Below are positions 4,490 through 22,664 of a stretch of DNA of 64,000 bases, piece after piece (within the stretch, counting starts at the first letter, position 1; every line of letters begins with the position of its first letter). The DNA comes from Ideonella sp. A 288. GTDB lineage: Bacteria; Pseudomonadota; Gammaproteobacteria; Burkholderiales; Burkholderiaceae_C. Under the pieces are notes generated by a model. The model did no database searches, was not told the origin of the DNA, and was given only the letters and a program-made list of their open reading frames with translations. The stretch lies in NCBI RefSeq assembly GCF_002198735.1, contig NZ_MWLO01000117.1, positions 1 to 64,000 on the forward strand. The letters are read 5' to 3'. Position numbers and translations under genes: made by a program.

Positions 4490-5796
4490 TGCTCGATCTG
4501 CTGGTCACCAACGCCACGCTGCCCGATGGCCGGCGCGGCATGTCGGTGGCGGTGCGCGGCGGCCGCATAGTCGAAGTGAGACCGGGGTTGTCGGCGCCGG
4601 CGCACGACACGGTCGATGCGCAGGGCCTGCTGCTCAGCCCGCCTTTCGTCGATGCGCACTTCCACATGGACGCCACGCTGAGCTATGGCCTGCCGCGCGT
4701 CAACCAGAGCGGCACGCTGCTCGAAGGCATCGCGCTGTGGGGCGAGCTGAAGCCCCAGCTGACGCAGGAGGCGCTGGTCGAGCGCGCGCTGGCCTACTGC
4801 GACTGGGCGGTGGCCAAGGGCCTGCTGGCGATCCGCTCGCACGTGGACGTCTGCGACGACCGGTTGCTGGCGGTGGAGGCGCTGCTGGAGGTGAAGCGCC
4901 GCGTCGCGCCTTACCTCGACCTGCAGCTGGTGGCCTTTCCGCAGGACGGCGTGCTGCGCGCGCCCACGGCGATGGCCAACCTGGAACGCGCGCTGGCGAT
5001 GGGCGTGGACGTGGTCGGCGGCATCCCGCACTTCGAGCGCACCATGGCCCACGGCGCCGAGAGCGTGCGTCTGCTGTGCGAGCTGGCCGCGCGCCAGGGC
5101 AAGCTGGTCGACATGCACTGCGACGAATCCGACGACCCGCTGTCGCGGCACGTCGAGGCGCTGGCCTTCGAGACGCAGCGGCTGGGGCTGCACGGGCGGG
5201 TGACGGGCTCGCACCTCACATCGATGCACTCGATGGACAACTATTACGTCAGCAAGCTGCTGGCACTGATGGCCGAGGCGCGGCTGTCGGTGGTGGCCAA
5301 CCCGCTGATCAACATCACGCTGCAGGGCCGGCACGACAGCTACCCCAGGCGGCGCGGCATGACCCGCGTGCCCGAGCTGGCCGCCGCCGGCCTGGACGTG
5401 GCCTTCGGCCACGACTGCGTGATGGACCCCTGGTACAGCCTGGGCTCGGGCGACATGCTCGAAGTGGCGCAGATGGGCCTGCACGTGGCGCAGATGACCT
5501 CGCAGGCGGCGATGCGCCAGTGCTTCGACGCGGTGACCAGCGTGCCCGCACGCATCCTGCACCTGCCCGGCTACGGCCTGGCCGAGGGCTGCCATGCCGA
5601 TTTCGTGTGGCTGCAGGCCCGCGACCCGATCGAGGCCATCCGCCTGCGCGCCACGCGGCTGGGCGTGTGGCGGCGGGGCCGCCGCATCGCCCACACCGCA
5701 CCCGCCACCGCGCACCTGGCGCTGGAGCACCGGCCGGCGTTCACCTCGTTCATGCCCGCGGCGGCCGGCCCGCAAGCCGGTCAAACCCCAGCCTAA
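4489..5796 (+). CDS. codA: Cytosine deaminase
   Basis: It hydrolyses cytosine to uracil and ammonia in pyrimidine salvage. The 435-residue protein belongs to the metal-dependent amidohydrolases. Metal and substrate residues of E. coli CodA all appear here with a constant shift of four: H57 and H59 (DAHFH), Q152 (AFPQDG), H210 and E213 (HCDESDD), H242 (GSHLTSMHS) and D309 (FGHDCVMDPW). The segment NPLINITLQGRHDSYPRRRG is also typical. The GAAAGGAGAG motif before the start is a good ribosome-binding site, and the start overlaps the permease stop. The identification rests on conserved residues over most of the length; a close relative acting on a modified cytosine or isoguanine is possible. Confidence 0.88.
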   Translation: MLDLLVTNATLPDGRRGMSVAVRGGRIVEVRPGLSAPAHDTVDAQGLLLSPPFVDAHFHMDATLSYGLPRVNQSGTLLEGIALWGELKPQLTQEALVERALAYCDWAVAKGLLAIRSHVDVCDDRLLAVEALLEVKRRVAPYLDLQLVAFPQDGVLRAPTAMANLERALAMGVDVVGGIPHFERTMAHGAESVRLLCELAARQGKLVDMHCDESDDPLSRHVEALAFETQRLGLHGRVTGSHLTSMHSMDNYYVSKLLALMAEARLSVVANPLINITLQGRHDSYPRRRGMTRVPELAAAGLDVAFGHDCVMDPWYSLGSGDMLEVAQMGLHVAQMTSQAAMRQCFDAVTSVPARILHLPGYGLAEGCHADFVWLQARDPIEAIRLRATRLGVWRRGRRIAHTAPATAHLALEHRPAFTSFMPAAAGPQAGQTPA

Positions 5797-5827: not shown

Positions 5828-7411
<1,584 letters not shown>

Positions 7412-17523: not shown

Positions 17524-18000
17524 ATGAAGCTGCCCTCGTCCAGCGTATGGGCTGAGTTCGCCGGCCCCGACCTGTCGGCCGATGCGTCGCCGGTGACGGG
17601 CCGCTGCCCACCGCCCGGCGTGATCGACCGGGTGGCCGATGCCGAGACCTCGCACCTCACCGTCCAGCCGGACGAGGGCCAGTGGCAGCCCTTCGTGCCC
17701 GGCGTGGCGATCAAGGTGCTCGATGAGCGCGAGGAGGTGCTGAGCTACCTGCTGCGGCTGGCGCCCGGTGCCGCGCTGCCCATGCATGCGCACCGCATGG
17801 ACGAAGAATGCCTGGTGCTCGCCGGCTCGCTGCGCATCGGCAGCGGCGTGGTGCTCGAGCAGGGTGCCTTCCACCTGGCGCGCCGAGGTTCGCTGCATGC
17901 CCGGATGACCAGCGACAGCGGCGCCACGCTGTACGTGCGCGGCGCCGTGCCCGAACTGATCGATCTCGTCGACCGAAGGTTCGGGGGTGGCGCACGGTGA
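17524..18000 (+). CDS. ChrR-like cupin domain protein
   Basis: This 158-residue protein has one cupin fold region resembling the C-terminal domain of ChrR-type anti-sigma factors. WQPFVPGVAIKVLDE is followed by YLLRLAPGAALPMHAHRMDEECLVLAGSLRIG, where H-x-H and a distal glutamate are candidate metal ligands. The zinc-binding N-terminal anti-sigma domain of ChrR (an H-x3-C-x2-C pattern) is not visible, and no ECF sigma gene is adjacent. It may be a stand-alone metal-binding cupin enzyme or sensor. It is the last plus-strand gene of the nucleoside island and converges with the cyclic-di-GMP gene. Confidence 0.75.
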   Translation: MKLPSSSVWAEFAGPDLSADASPVTGRCPPPGVIDRVADAETSHLTVQPDEGQWQPFVPGVAIKVLDEREEVLSYLLRLAPGAALPMHAHRMDEECLVLAGSLRIGSGVVLEQGAFHLARRGSLHARMTSDSGATLYVRGAVPELIDLVDRRFGGGAR

Positions 18001-18192
18001 CGTGGGCTCGAAGCGAGGAACCGCGACCGCTGGACGGCGTCATGTGAGCCGTGCGTCGCCCGGCCGACCTGCGACGTCAGACTTTGCAGGGTGGGCCGTG
18101 CGCCCGGCATCGAGACGCTCGGGCCGCTGCGCTGGCCTGTCGGCAAACAGTGGAACCCAGGGGCTCAAGCCGGCACGCGGCCCGTTCAGCCG

Positions 18193-20436
18193 TCAGGGGT
18201 TTTCGGCGGCCTTGCGGAGCCGGCCGTCGCGGCCGAGCAAGGGCCGCAGTTTGTCCAGCGACATCGGCCGTGCGAACCAGTAGCCCTGCGCGCTGTCGCA
18301 GCCGACCTGCAGCAGCACGTCCAGCTGCCCTTGGCGCTCGACACCTTCGGCCACGATGTTCAGGCCCAGGCCGTGGGCCATGGCACTGATGGCGCTGATG
18401 ATGCTTTCGCTTTCGCGCGACACATCGACATCGGCGACGAAGGTCTTGTCGATCTTCAGGAACTCCACGGGCAGACGCCGCAGGGAGTTGAGCGACGAAT
18501 AGCCGGTGCCGAAGTCATCGATGGCGGCGCTCACGCCGGCCTCGCGCAACCGGTTGAGCACCTGCGCCGCGTGGTCGATGTCGCTCATCACCATGCTCTC
18601 GGTCACTTCGACGATCAGGGCCGATCCGGGCAGGCCGCAGCGGTCGAGTTCACCGACGATGAAGTCGGCCAGCCCGGGGGCGGCGAGCTGCCGCCTGGAC
18701 ACATTCACGGCCACCCGTGCCTGCGGCCAGGTGTCGCTGCGCAGCTCGCGCGCCAGCTGCACGGCCTGGCGGACGACGAACTCGCCCAGTTCCACGATCA
18801 GGCCGGAGTCCTCGGCAATCGGGATGAATTGATCGGGCGCGATGGGGCCGCGTTCGGGGTGGTTCCAGCGCAGCAGCGCTTCCAGGCTGCGGACAAGGCC
18901 GCCGGCCAGATCAACCACCGGCTGCAGTTCGAGCGTGAATTCGCCGCGCTGCAGCCCCTGGGCGATCTGGGTCTTGACCTTGAGCTGGCGTGCGATGTCT
19001 TCGCCCAGGGCAGGCGAGTAGTACCGGCTGGTGTTGCGACCTGCCGACTTGGCCGCGTACATGGCCGTGTCGGCGTTCTTGATCAGCGTGTCGGGCTCGC
19101 TGCCGTCGTTCGGAAAGCGGGCGATGCCGATGCTGGCACCGATGCGCACGCTTTGCCCGCCGATGTCGAAGGGCAGGTTGATGGCCTGGATGATCTTCTC
19201 GCAGACGTGCAGCACGTCCGACTCGCTCGGGCTGCCGTGCATGATGACGGTGAACTCGTCGCCGCCGAGCCGGGCGAGCGAGTCGGCCTGCCGCACGCAA
19301 GCCTCGATGCGACGGGCGGCGATGCACAGCAACTGGTCGCCGGCGTCGTGCCCCAGGCTGTCGTTGACGATCTTGAACTCGTCGAGATCGATGAACAGCA
19401 GCGCCAGCGGGCCGATGTCGCGCCGCGCGCGCGCCATGGCCTGCTGCAGGCGGTCCTTGAACAGCACGCGGTTGGGCAGGTGTGTCAGGCTGTCGTAGAA
19501 GGCCAGCCGCTGCCAGCGTTCCTCGGCGTGCTTCAGCCGTGTGATGTCGGAGAAGTTGATCACGTAGTGACGCAGCGCGCCACTGTCGTCGGGAACGGCG
19601 CTGACGGTCAGCCACCTCGGAAAGGACTCGCCGCCCTTGCGCCGGCCGGTGCATTCGCCCTGCCAACTGCCCGTGCGTGCCACCTGGTCCCAGATGGCGT
19701 CGATGAAGCCGACCGGATGTTGGCCGGGCTCACCCAGGGCATGGACCGTGCCCAGCTGCTCCGCCTTGGTGAAGCCAGTGATCGCCGTGAAGGCCTGGTT
19801 GACGTCGACCACACGCCGGTCGTGGTCGGTCACCACGACCGCCTCGCCCGAGCTCTGAAGCACCCGGTGCGCCAGATGCAGGTCCTTGCGCAGCACGGCG
19901 CTCAGGCGGCGCAGTTCACCGTTCTTGCGCGCCAGTTCGCGCTCGGCGTTGACCAGGCGGTTGTTCAACTCGAGCATGTCGCGGAACATCTCGTGGGTGA
20001 AATGGCTGGACAGCTCGGTCTCGGCCCTTTTGCCCTTGCCGCGGCCTGCCTTGTGCTTGCTCAGCGCCCGCAGGCTGTTGATCTGCTCGCTGATGACGTG
20101 GCTCAGGCCGTCGTAGAGCCTGGACTCGTCGTGCGGCGTTGCGCTGGCCAGCAACAGGATGCGGTTGCCGACCACGGCGGCCTCGAAGTTCAGCGGGCGA
20201 GGGTTGCCGGCACCGGCCACGTTCAGTTCCCAGCCGAACGCGGCGCCGCGCTCCTTGACCTGCATGATCAGGCCCAGCGCCTTCTGCACCGACCCGGGGT
20301 CGAACAGGCAGGCCATGTGCGACTGGTCGGCCAGGGGGGCGCTGACTTCCAGGTCGTCCCACAAGACCTCGGTGACCAATCCGTCGTAGTTGCAGACCAG
20401 GGCCACACCGGAGTTGCTGGCAAAAGTCTCCGACAC
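18193..20436 (-). CDS. PAS-GGDEF-EAL cyclic-di-GMP turnover protein
   Basis: It is predicted to make and/or degrade cyclic-di-GMP in the cytoplasm; no membrane helix is visible. Order in 747 residues: an N-terminal PAS-like region (about 10-105), a coiled linker (about 115-195), a PAS domain (about 195-300), GGDEF (about 310-475) and EAL (about 485-735). GGDEF is intact at 391-395 with an inhibitory-site RQAD at 382-385, five residues upstream. EAL is intact at 519-521, with DDFGTGYSS at 640-648 and EGVE at 697-700, so both activities could be retained. The start is GTG, directly abutting the TGA of the cobalamin-binding gene (TGAGTG), implying coupling and a shared pathway. Confidence 0.93.
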   Translation of the reverse strand: MSETFASNSGVALVCNYDGLVTEVLWDDLEVSAPLADQSHMACLFDPGSVQKALGLIMQVKERGAAFGWELNVAGAGNPRPLNFEAAVVGNRILLLASATPHDESRLYDGLSHVISEQINSLRALSKHKAGRGKGKRAETELSSHFTHEMFRDMLELNNRLVNAERELARKNGELRRLSAVLRKDLHLAHRVLQSSGEAVVVTDHDRRVVDVNQAFTAITGFTKAEQLGTVHALGEPGQHPVGFIDAIWDQVARTGSWQGECTGRRKGGESFPRWLTVSAVPDDSGALRHYVINFSDITRLKHAEERWQRLAFYDSLTHLPNRVLFKDRLQQAMARARRDIGPLALLFIDLDEFKIVNDSLGHDAGDQLLCIAARRIEACVRQADSLARLGGDEFTVIMHGSPSESDVLHVCEKIIQAINLPFDIGGQSVRIGASIGIARFPNDGSEPDTLIKNADTAMYAAKSAGRNTSRYYSPALGEDIARQLKVKTQIAQGLQRGEFTLELQPVVDLAGGLVRSLEALLRWNHPERGPIAPDQFIPIAEDSGLIVELGEFVVRQAVQLARELRSDTWPQARVAVNVSRRQLAAPGLADFIVGELDRCGLPGSALIVEVTESMVMSDIDHAAQVLNRLREAGVSAAIDDFGTGYSSLNSLRRLPVEFLKIDKTFVADVDVSRESESIISAISAMAHGLGLNIVAEGVERQGQLDVLLQVGCDSAQGYWFARPMSLDKLRPLLGRDGRLRKAAENP

Positions 20437-21477
20437 TCACGTTCTCCAACGATCGGCCAGTTCCAGTGCGGTGCCGGGATCGGGCGCCCAGCCGTCACAG
20501 CCCATCTGGCGCCACAGCGTCGGCTCGACGTTGAACGCAGCGCCACCCACGAGGATCTTCACTGCCGCGCAGGCCGGGGACGCACGCACCGCCGCGATGA
20601 GCGCACTGGCGTCGCTCAGGTTGGCTGCCAGCGTGACCGAGATCGCCAGCACCTGGGCTTCGGTCTCCACCAGCATGTCGACCACCGACTCGCGCGGCAC
20701 GTCGGCGCCGAGGAAGGCCGTGTCCCAGCCCGCCATCTCGAACAGGTCGGCCACCATGCGGGCGCCGATCTCGTGCAGTTCGCCGGCCACACAGGCCGAC
20801 ACGATGCGTCCGATCGGCTTGCGGTCGTTGTCGAAGATGACCGGAAAGAGCTGCGCCATCACCATCTGTGCCACGGCAGTGCAGTAGTGCTCCTGCGCCA
20901 CCGTCAGCCGGTTCTGGTGCCATAGCCGGCCCAACTCGCGCATGGCCGGGGTGATGACGCCGGTGTAGATCTCGGGCACCGGCACGCCGTCCCGGATGGC
21001 CTGCTGCACCAGGGCCGCAGCCTGCGATCGGCGCAGGTGCACACAGGCATCGAGGAAGGCCTCGCCGAGCGCTCGATGGGGGTTGTCATCGCTCCAGTAG
21101 GACGTGTCGGGGGCCGGTGCCGTGCGCATGGTGGCGCAGGCCGCTTCCATGTCGCTCAAGGCCTCGGCCACCCAGTCGCCGCGGCCGCTTTCGCGCAGCA
21201 GCTCGGCGATGGCGCGCAGGCAAGCCTCGAAGCGGTCAACGTCGCCATGGGCAGTCGCCAGCAACTGGTAGGTCCAGGCGACGTACTCGGTGAACAGCCT
21301 CGGCACCCTCAAGCGCACCGCCTCGCCCAGGAATGCCAGGTGCATTTCCAGGTCGAACACCATGGCCAGCCGCTCGTTGCCGCCGAACTCGAACCAGGCA
21401 GGATTCAACCGATGGCGCAGCAGCCGCGCAAGTTCGGCCTTGCGTCTCAGCAGTTCACCCTCGTCTTGTATGACCAT
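20437..21477 (-). CDS. Cobalamin-binding protein with CarH-type photoreceptor motif
   Basis: The C-terminal part is a B12-binding Rossmann domain. ELHEIG (E233-G238) fits the E/DxHxxG motif with H235 as lower axial ligand, then exactly 41 residues to SVT (280-282), then 28 to GG (311-312). The preceding four-helix cap contains W186 and E196-H197, spaced W-x9-EH, the motif shielding the upper face of adenosylcobalamin in CarH-type photoreceptors. There is no MerR DNA-binding domain. Instead an N-terminal helical region of about 130 residues (FEFGGNERLAMVFDLEMHLAFLGE) may be the output or partner surface. It adjoins the PAS-GGDEF-EAL gene with no spacer. Light sensing is inference; redox or B12-level sensing is possible. 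Confidence 0.85.
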   Translation of the reverse strand: MVIQDEGELLRRKAELARLLRHRLNPAWFEFGGNERLAMVFDLEMHLAFLGEAVRLRVPRLFTEYVAWTYQLLATAHGDVDRFEACLRAIAELLRESGRGDWVAEALSDMEAACATMRTAPAPDTSYWSDDNPHRALGEAFLDACVHLRRSQAAALVQQAIRDGVPVPEIYTGVITPAMRELGRLWHQNRLTVAQEHYCTAVAQMVMAQLFPVIFDNDRKPIGRIVSACVAGELHEIGARMVADLFEMAGWDTAFLGADVPRESVVDMLVETEAQVLAISVTLAANLSDASALIAAVRASPACAAVKILVGGAAFNVEPTLWRQMGCDGWAPDPGTALELADRWRT

Positions 21478-21662
21478 CCAGGCTCCGGCGACGTTGCATT
21501 CACGGGCAATGTGGCGCTTTGCCCTGGGTCAGCCATCTGCCGACCACCGCAAGGCCTGCACAGCCTCGACGTCGATTGCTCCCTCTGTGGTGAATGCTGC
21601 ACCAGCCATCCTGGGCCGTCCATGCCCCAACACAGGGGCTCTGCGGTGGACTCGGCAAGGTA

Positions 21663-21676
21663 TTGATCTGGCTCAA
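21663..21676 (-). promoter_or_regulatory. FNR/ANR-like box upstream of the cobalamin-binding gene
   Basis: TTGAT-CTGG-CTCAA differs at one position from the FNR/ANR dyad TTGAT-N4-ATCAA. It lies in the 203-base gap between the psuG stop and the cobalamin-binding gene, 186 bases upstream of that start. I see no clear -10 at the distance expected of a class II site, so the assignment is tentative. Confidence 0.4.
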
Positions 21677-21680
21677 GCAG

Positions 21681-22664
21681 TCAACCCGCTCGGCGCGGCC
21701 CGTCGCCCAGCGGCGATGATGGCTGCGAGGGCGGCGCGTTGCCCGCCAGCGCCCGTGCCAGCCGGGCCCCCACCTGGGCGTTGTGGCGCACCAGCGCGAT
21801 GTTGGTGGCCAGGCTGCGCCCGCCGGTGAGCGCCACGATGCGGGCCAGCAGGTAGGGCGTGACGGCCTTGCCGACGATGCCCTGCGCCGCCGCCTCGGCC
21901 AGCGCCTGATCGGTGATGGCGTCGATGGCCTCGCGCGGCATCGCGGCTTCGGCGGGCACCGGGTTGGACAGCACCACGCCACCGGCCAGGCCCAGGTCCC
22001 ACTTGGCGCGGATGAAGCGCGCCTGCGCCTCGGCCGTGTCCAGCCGGCAGTCGGCGCGGAAGCCGCTGTCGCGGGTGTAGAAGGCGGCGAAGTTGTCCTG
22101 GCCGCAGCCGATCACCGGCACGCCGTGGGTTTCGAGGTACTCGAGCGTGAGGCCGATGTCGAGGATCGACTTGGCGCCGGCGCACACCACTGCCACCGAG
22201 GTGCGGGCCAGTTCCTGCAGGTCGGCCGAGATGTCGAAGCTGGTCGGCGCGCCGCGGTGCACCCCGCCGATGCCGCCGGTGACGAAGACCTCGATGCCGG
22301 CCAGTGCCGCGCACACCATCGTGCCGGCCACGGTGGTGGCGCCCAGCGCGCCCGAGGCCAGCACCGCGGGCAGGTCGCGGCGGCTCACCTTGGCGGCGTC
22401 GCGGGCCTGGCCCAGGCGCTCGAGCTGTGCCTCGTCCAGGCCGATGCGGATGCGGCCGTCGATGACCGCGATGGTGGCCGGCACCGCGCCCTCGGCGCGG
22501 ATCAGCGACTCGACCTCGCGGGCGGTGCGCACGTTGTCGGGCCAGGGCATGCCGTGGGCGATGATCGTGGATTCCAGCGCCACCACCGGCGTGCCGGCGG
22601 CGCGCGCGGCCAGCACTTCGTCGCTGAAGGCCAGCCAGCGGGCGGCGGTGTCGGGCATGGCCAT
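21681..22664 (-). CDS. psuG: Pseudouridine-5'-phosphate glycosidase
   Basis: It reversibly splits pseudouridine-5'-phosphate into uracil and ribose-5-phosphate, breaking the C-C glycosidic bond. The 327 residues contain the family blocks VVALESTIIAHGMPWPDNV, GALGATTVAGTM, VFVTGGIGGVHRGA and VVCAGAKSILDI, the last containing the catalytic lysine. No PsuK kinase or dedicated transporter is adjacent. It follows serB by 39 bases on the same strand. Pseudouridine breakdown fits the pyrimidine theme of the opposite strand, but co-regulation is not shown. Confidence 0.92.
   Translation of the reverse strand: MAMPDTAARWLAFSDEVLAARAAGTPVVALESTIIAHGMPWPDNVRTAREVESLIRAEGAVPATIAVIDGRIRIGLDEAQLERLGQARDAAKVSRRDLPAVLASGALGATTVAGTMVCAALAGIEVFVTGGIGGVHRGAPTSFDISADLQELARTSVAVVCAGAKSILDIGLTLEYLETHGVPVIGCGQDNFAAFYTRDSGFRADCRLDTAEAQARFIRAKWDLGLAGGVVLSNPVPAEAAMPREAIDAITDQALAEAAAQGIVGKAVTPYLLARIVALTGGRSLATNIALVRHNAQVGARLARALAGNAPPSQPSSPLGDGPRRAG

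Follow-up and report, generated by a model that had tools for sequence, protein, structure and literature searches.

What does a cobalamin-binding protein control when its gene directly abuts the gene of a cyclic di-GMP enzyme? The question is raised by a gene pair on the reverse strand of the 64,000 nucleotides (nt) of Ideonella sp. A 288 analysed here (contig NZ_MWLO01000117.1, positions 1 to 64,000, referred to as the window), where a B12-type sensor gene is followed by a gene for a PAS-GGDEF-EAL protein. Our answer is that the two products probably form a light switch for cyclic di-GMP made of two proteins, in which a photocobilin-type sensor would dock on a PAS and coiled-coil cassette at the start of its partner.

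The sensor gene (P0001, 20437..21477, 346 amino acids (aa), ATG start) was delimited by its open reading frame (ORF), Pfam, phmmer and an AlphaFold2 (AF2) model. It ends in a TGA at 20439-20437, and the GTG start of the partner gene (P0002, 18193..20436, 747 aa) begins at 20436, so that the genes abut without a gap. A GGAG at 20444..20447 lies 7 nt before this GTG in the junction sequence, and the two genes appear to belong to one operon. No promoter or terminator was found on scanning 17950-21750, and TGT-N12-ACA sites, which we take to be the PpsR type, are not enriched in the window (4 observed, 5.7 expected) and are absent from the gene pair. The first-pass annotation of this DNA had described the same ORFs, coordinates and junction, and the ORF list and junction sequence agree with it in full, as do the sensor and enzyme motifs given below.

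The C-terminal part of the sensor carries W186-x9-E196-H197 and E233-L-H235-E-I-G238, with 41 residues from the latter to S280-V-T and 28 more to G311-G312. Pfam finds B12-binding_2 (2e-17) and B12-binding (1e-20). Together with the AF2 model and an alignment this delimits a four-helix cap (residues 135-210, 20848..21075) holding W186, E196-H197 and Q204, and, with the motifs, a Rossmann B12-binding domain (223-334, 20476..20811) holding S280 and G311-G312; H235 is expected to be the lower ligand of cobalamin. As a loose cobalamin motif occurs three times and W-x9-EH twice in the six frames of the window, the copies of the sensor gene included, motifs alone are not sufficient. Relatives were therefore compared from 31 loci in public genomes, which were found with peptides of the window protein and so sample the relatives unevenly. 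When the window protein is aligned with 30 of these (the partial L036 was dropped), E196, H197, H235, E236, G238, S280, G311 and G312 are invariant, which takes the motifs beyond chance; W186 is kept in 30 of 31 rows and Q204 in all 31. The AF2 model has a mean pLDDT of 91.8, and VIA fold comparison of residues ~132-346 places photocobilins first (Z 26.3, 26.1 and 25.5). The next row scores 23.0, and the lower rows include a corrinoid protein for monomethylamine (23.0), CtMerR together with MetH (22.3), AerR (21.4), the SCHIC domain of AppA (20.7) and CarH (about 20). Photocobilins are also the top phmmer matches among PDB sequences (8j2w, 8e-28). W-x9-EH and the cobalamin motifs likewise support, as a prediction, the CarH-type pocket for adenosylcobalamin (AdoCbl) that had been proposed at first. 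Counted from the Trp (W+18), Q204 corresponds to Gln112 of AerR, which is suggestive only; the two photocobilins in the phmmer alignments, with which it was compared, do not share it.

The first-pass annotation saw in this protein a CarH-type photoreceptor whose MerR domain had given way to an unrelated helical N-terminus. Pfam indeed finds no MerR match, but the N-terminus proved to be related to something familiar. Residues 1-138 have no Pfam match over cut-off, and a second, weak phmmer stretch (14 bits) places residues 21-97 on the C-terminal globin of SasPcob. A profile of 28 N-termini (the window protein and 27 of the 31 loci, with L028, L030, L031 and L036 excluded) matches among PDB sequences SasPcob at 8e-10 (8j2x/8j2w), allophycocyanin beta at 1e-5, AbPcob at 2e-5 and further phycobiliproteins. 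In the phmmer and the profile alignment alike, Asp270 and Trp296 of SasPcob, which contact biliverdin (numbering of the published paper, the chain index plus an offset of 6 fixed by Trp61), fall on D42 (21352-21354) and W68 (21274-21276) of the sensor. Counting the window protein, all 29 rows that have a letter at the first of these positions show the Asp, and all 31 rows show the Trp at the second. Where phycobiliproteins have their attachment Cys the sensor has Met39, although 12 of the 26 rows with a letter there do have Cys. The Phycobilisome family PF00502 is matched by the relative L010 at 0.0067, short of the family cut-off. Since the VIA structure rows hardly cover residues 1-131, the assignment rests on sequence profiles, by which residues 1-117 (21127..21477) are a phycobiliprotein-like globin of the bilin-binding or photoglobin type. 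The sensor is therefore grouped with the photocobilins and not taken for a CarH with an odd replacement; membership of CarH was rejected on the missing MerR match and the globin-like N-terminus. We predict a photocobilin-type protein that binds AdoCbl and probably a bilin, with the globin placed before the B12 module. Three relatives (L025, L028 and L033) have sensor ORFs of about 510-600 aa with two globin-type N-terminal stretches each, as judged by the sensor profile.

The partner reads, from its N-terminus, PAS, coiled coil, PAS, GGDEF and EAL. Pfam identifies its second PAS domain (PAS_9, 1.5e-11; residues 191-298, 19543..19866), the GGDEF domain (1e-50; 312-468, 19033..19503) and the EAL domain (7e-71; 490-724, 18265..18969). 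GGDEF stands at 391, the RxxD I-site at 382-385 and EAL at 519, and NVS, DDFGTG, AEGVE and QGY are also present; we assume that the GGDEF, I-site, EAL and catalytic motifs have their customary meanings. The enzyme motifs and the I-site are intact in a protein predicted both to make and to degrade cyclic di-GMP. The first 190 residues, which have no Pfam match over cut-off, form the cassette. AF2 models residues 1-189 as a PAS fold with a long coil (mean pLDDT 80). The PAS-fold domain (about residues 3-102, 20131..20430) is supported by the model, by VIA (Z 12.6, root-mean-square deviation 1.8, 90 aligned; the 50 rows listed consist of PAS-protein chains, none of them PpsR) and by a profile match to the N-PAS domain of CrtJ. 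The coiled-coil linker (104-188, 19873..20127), delimited by AF2 and profiles and placed like the Q-linker of CrtJ/PpsR, includes the stretch LNNRLVNAERELARKNGELR (19909-19968) that is conserved in an alignment of cassettes. Foldseek with the cassette lists the PpsR chains 4l9g, 4hh3 and 4hh2 at 3e-4 to 9e-4 among many PAS chains, which proves little by itself. A cassette profile found no credible match among PDB sequences (best 0.57); the cassette was placed by fold comparison and by profile-profile comparison.

In the latter, hhalign matches the cassette with the CrtJ N-PAS and Q-linker at 95.8% and an E-value of 3.4e-9 (one comparison), collinear over both parts, against 0.9% for CrtJ PAS1, 0.04% for PAS2 and 0.1% for a reversed profile. 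The PAS part alone reaches 80% with CrtJ N-PAS and 2.4% with PAS1. The CrtJ/PpsR profile held at most 31 sequences from one bacterial family only, and gap-rich rows were dropped. In the alignment the CrtJ-like QQRLVDAQHTLERDYWRLR falls on the partner's NNRLVNAERELARKNGELR, and N158 and N172, both invariant in the cassette, and L161, which is nearly so, fall, matched by spacing, on the Gln, Tyr and Leu of the Q-linker that are termed universally conserved in CrtJ (PMC9144470). The PpsR-like copy in the genome of the sensor has Phe instead of this Leu. In the crystal complex of AppA with PpsR (4HH3), SCHIC, a domain of B12 fold, is in contact with the Q-linker; AerR has been modelled on the Q-linker of CrtJ with its Gln112 facing it (PMC9144470). 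We consider the new element here to be the link of the cassette to CrtJ/PpsR, from which we infer the docking part of the switch.

The pairing itself recurs. At 24 of the 31 loci the gene directly after the sensor gene opens with the same cassette, so that the adjacency proposed as a check at the outset is conserved. Of these, 21 were recognised by blastp of the partner at E 1e-5, matching its first 140-190 residues, and three more (L034, L035, in its coil part only, and L037) by a profile of 20 loci and the window that was not built from them. One locus without a cassette, L014, is cut off at a contig end. The cassette loci span several phyla, including Chloroflexi and Proteobacteria. What follows the cassette varies: outputs at the 31 loci are of histidine-kinase type in 21 cases (L015 and L016 have HATPase_c only and no HisKA match), GGDEF in five and PAS-GGDEF-EAL in three, and two were not seen. 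The three PAS-GGDEF-EAL partners come from metagenome-assembled genomes (MAGs) of Rubrivivax (L008, assigned by 70% identity to the partner), Methylococcaceae (L009) and Thiohalocapsa (L026), the last two assigned by Pfam; the closest relative found (76%) lies in a Rubrivivax MAG. A profile of the coil has 30 matches with domain E < 1 among 1755 ORFs of 44 loci, all in the gene after the sensor gene, 20 of which had served to build it; it matches 23 of the 24 cassette genes (not L024). The motif L[NS]x6[QEH]RxL, which was written after the sequences were known, occurs in 26 of the 1755 ORFs, 25 of them the gene after the sensor gene, and matches only 15 of the 24 cassette genes. At L021 two tandem photocobilin-type genes (4515-5747 and 5869-6909) precede one GGDEF partner.

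The genome of the sensor could supply both pigments. It has two heme oxygenase genes, on contigs C12 and C141, and a PduO-type adenosyltransferase; C12 carries the stronger heme oxygenase, a bacteriophytochrome and the two Photo_RC genes. These genes make both chromophores plausible, and the heme oxygenase, Photo_RC and adenosyltransferase genes together with the Rubrivivax MAG relative point to a host that is probably a purple phototrophic betaproteobacterium. Within the first 12000 nt of C12 (L057), the heme oxygenase, the PHY/GAF bacteriophytochrome and a second PpsR-like PAS-HTH gene (HTH, helix-turn-helix) stand together. On another contig of this genome (C163; L058, 617-2973), a second B12 protein, in which the EH is missing, overlaps a PAS-PAS-HTH gene of CrtJ/PpsR type by 4 nt; judged by sequence, this is an AerR-CrtJ-like pair in the sensor's own genome. 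The cassette profile weakly matches this PAS-PAS-HTH protein (E 1e-4) and the PpsR-like protein beside the bacteriophytochrome (7e-4).

From these elements a mechanism can be proposed. AdoCbl would be sandwiched by the sensor's four-helix cap and Rossmann domain, and the globin would probably hold biliverdin non-covalently beside it. Light would break the Co-C bond, green light directly and red light via the bilin; with the loss of adenosyl, the cap helix carrying E196-H197 would move. The sensor would be docked on the PAS and coiled-coil cassette of its partner, as SCHIC is on the Q-linker of PpsR, and the coil would relay the movement to the PAS, GGDEF and EAL domains that follow it, tipping the balance between cyclase and phosphodiesterase activity. 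No sign can be predicted for this effect, because SasPcob without biliverdin activates its cyclase in darkness and inhibits it on illumination, while other cases are the reverse (PMC10979010).

That divergence in sign is one of several observations that weigh against the switch as proposed. The coil alone gives no significant match with CrtJ (2.7-5%), the match being carried by the PAS part (80-84%) and by both parts together. In favour of the pairing, sensor and partner distances correlate (r 0.77 over 21 pairs; r 0.73 over 17 pairs when the window's group is removed; 0 of 5000 permutations in each case), but the figures still contain the effect of host ancestry. The partner alignment held the window and 20 of the 26 partner genes, with L024 and five myxobacterial genes dropped. 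Six myxobacterial loci have a kinase gene next to the sensor gene with no clear cassette match, five of them keeping the coil motif. The sensor is also rare, being found in 5 of 399 genomes of the order, 6 of 399 of the family and 6 of 398 of the phylum, each count including its own genome; none of the five other listed genomes of the genus has a relative, and at E 1e-8 the cassette is found among the 399 order genomes only in its own. Seven of the nine order and family relatives adjoin a PAS/coil, GGDEF or kinase gene, none with a strong cassette match; L060 has no such neighbour and L064 is a fragment. Two of the nine (L056 and L063) have no globin match. Among five phylum relatives, L103 and L104 carry the cassette, L106 is cut off, L107 shows no more than a weak match to the coil some 500 nt off and L105 has none. 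Regarding the pigments, the adenosyltransferase BtuR (PF02572) is absent from the sensor's own genome, and heme oxygenase PF01126 was found in only 8 of the 41 genomes with a relative (its own included; many of the 41 are MAGs) and in no Sorangium genome searched, so that a bilin is not general. That the bilin-pocket residues are kept where PF01126 was not found (33 of 41) may reflect another source of bilin, another ligand or a structural role. Two of these relatives deserve mention for their own sake: at L061 (1965-5333), in the same family, a distant sensor relative (26% identity) lies 9 nt before a PAS-GGDEF-EAL gene whose match to the cassette is marginal and whose pairing may be independent, and at L104 (2142-5051) an open frame of 970 aa joins an N-terminal cassette to a long C-terminal part.

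The scarcity of heme oxygenases bears on a simpler explanation, in which the protein is a green-light switch with AdoCbl as its only pigment, the globin being a structural or interaction domain and no bilin being bound in this lineage. The replacement of the phycobiliprotein Cys by Met39 would suit this, as would AbDPcob, which has His for the Asp and binds biliverdin at about 20% occupancy (PMC10979010); yet SasPcob also lacks the Cys and binds biliverdin (PMC10979010), D42 and W68 are kept in every row with a letter, and the sensor's own genome has two heme oxygenases. We regard this explanation as unlikely, if worth keeping in view. Light may also be of no concern to the protein, which would then sense cobalamin status or redox state and tune its partner by cofactor loading: a PpaA/AerR-like protein of R. 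rubrum is tied to redox state (PMC10734443), and apo and dark AdoCbl-bound AbDPcob already differ in rate (PMC10979010). The sensor, however, keeps the W-x9-EH of AdoCbl photoreceptors, whereas the AerR-like copy in its genome has no EH, and Photo_RC genes are present in that genome; such a sensor strikes us as improbable.

About as improbable, or slightly more so, is that the sensor has no action on its neighbour and the genes are merely co-transcribed. The absence of such a partner beside the relatives L060 and L105 agrees with this, but the cassette is met repeatedly next to the sensor gene with differing outputs, and all matches of the coil profile lie in the gene after the sensor gene, even if two thirds of them were used in building it. 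Least credible by far is an ordinary corrinoid protein of a methyltransferase system. NCBIfam corrinoid families do match, at 1e-17 to 1e-14, but all score far under their cut-offs (64 of 215 bits at best), and such a protein would account for neither the globin domain, W-x9-EH nor the signalling partner; this candidate was rejected on its scores, without a family search of the window's remaining genes. The two-protein light switch thus remains the reading that we prefer.

A broader proposal, which we put forward tentatively and with rather less assurance than the switch itself, is that AerR-CrtJ and AppA-PpsR could be special cases of a wider module present in several phyla, in which a B12-fold sensor, often a photocobilin, docks on a transferable N-PAS/Q-linker cassette whose outputs may be kinase, cyclase, cyclase-phosphodiesterase or DNA-binding. 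If the switch is as proposed, stand-alone photocobilins, whose function has been called 'less clear' (PMC10979010), would gain a definite genetic partner and a candidate docking site, and the photosynthesis regulator CrtJ/PpsR would share one sensor logic with cyclic di-GMP enzymes. Green and red optogenetics would likewise profit from such a sensor, its docking cassette being portable and its outputs exchangeable.

How far has such a system been described? The first-pass annotation knew of no such description. Control of a fused diguanylate cyclase by a photocobilin has been published, however, including experiments in which photocobilins were added in trans to that cyclase (PMC10979010), which qualifies that statement. 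Of the two-gene layout no description was found in the literature searched, mostly open-access and not including the photoglobin family paper. The words 'histidine kinase', 'operon' and 'EAL' are absent from the main text of PMC10979010, a study that did analyse gene neighbourhoods, with figures in its supplement, and 'histidine kinase' and 'operon' are absent from the main text of PMC11796333. The latter reports proteins with a cobalamin-binding domain (CBD) mined by SignatureFinder, among them BBD-CBD fusions, with diguanylate cyclase and phosphodiesterase among the network domains. Clusters of B12, globin and heme oxygenase genes have been described as bilin-synthesis clusters (PMC10151467); they combine a globin with a B12-binding domain as the sensor does, in a context that differs. 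From CarH and LitR (5C8D and others) the sensor differs in lacking MerR and in the lower Z noted above (about 20, against 26 for photocobilins), while sharing the AdoCbl pocket W-x9-EH and the lower-ligand His. The photoglobin family of Schneider 2022 is likewise said to couple a globin to a B12-binding domain, in signalling or bilin contexts.

Two sets of known systems come closest. AerR-CrtJ and AppA-PpsR likewise pair a co-regulator of B12 fold with a partner that has N-PAS and coil at its N-terminus (PMC9144470), but their output is an HTH domain, whereas the partner here opens with a predicted N-PAS and Q-linker, has no HTH in Pfam and ends in GGDEF-EAL; the AerR-like copy in the same genome is itself unlike the sensor, with neither a globin match nor the EH. 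The photocobilins SasPcob and AbDPcob (8J2W, 8J2X, 8J2Y; PMC10979010) have the same B12 module with W-x9-EH, and SasPcob has a globin with the biliverdin-contacting Asp and Trp. They control a cyclic di-GMP enzyme, in vitro also in trans, and we propose that the sensor resembles them in this. The sensor appears to combine the photocobilin features, namely W-x9-EH with E/DxH, a fused globin, and the biliverdin-contacting Asp and Trp without an attachment Cys. Its domain order is the reverse of theirs, and since PMC10979010 mentions a group whose AdoCbl domain is C-terminal, the globin-first order is not new. Unlike in the photocobilin systems, the enzyme here is encoded separately and has a PAS and coil cassette of its own and an EAL domain. 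The sensor thus appears to be a photocobilin of the recently described dual-pigment type, and its pairing with a separate cyclic di-GMP enzyme a variant of that type.

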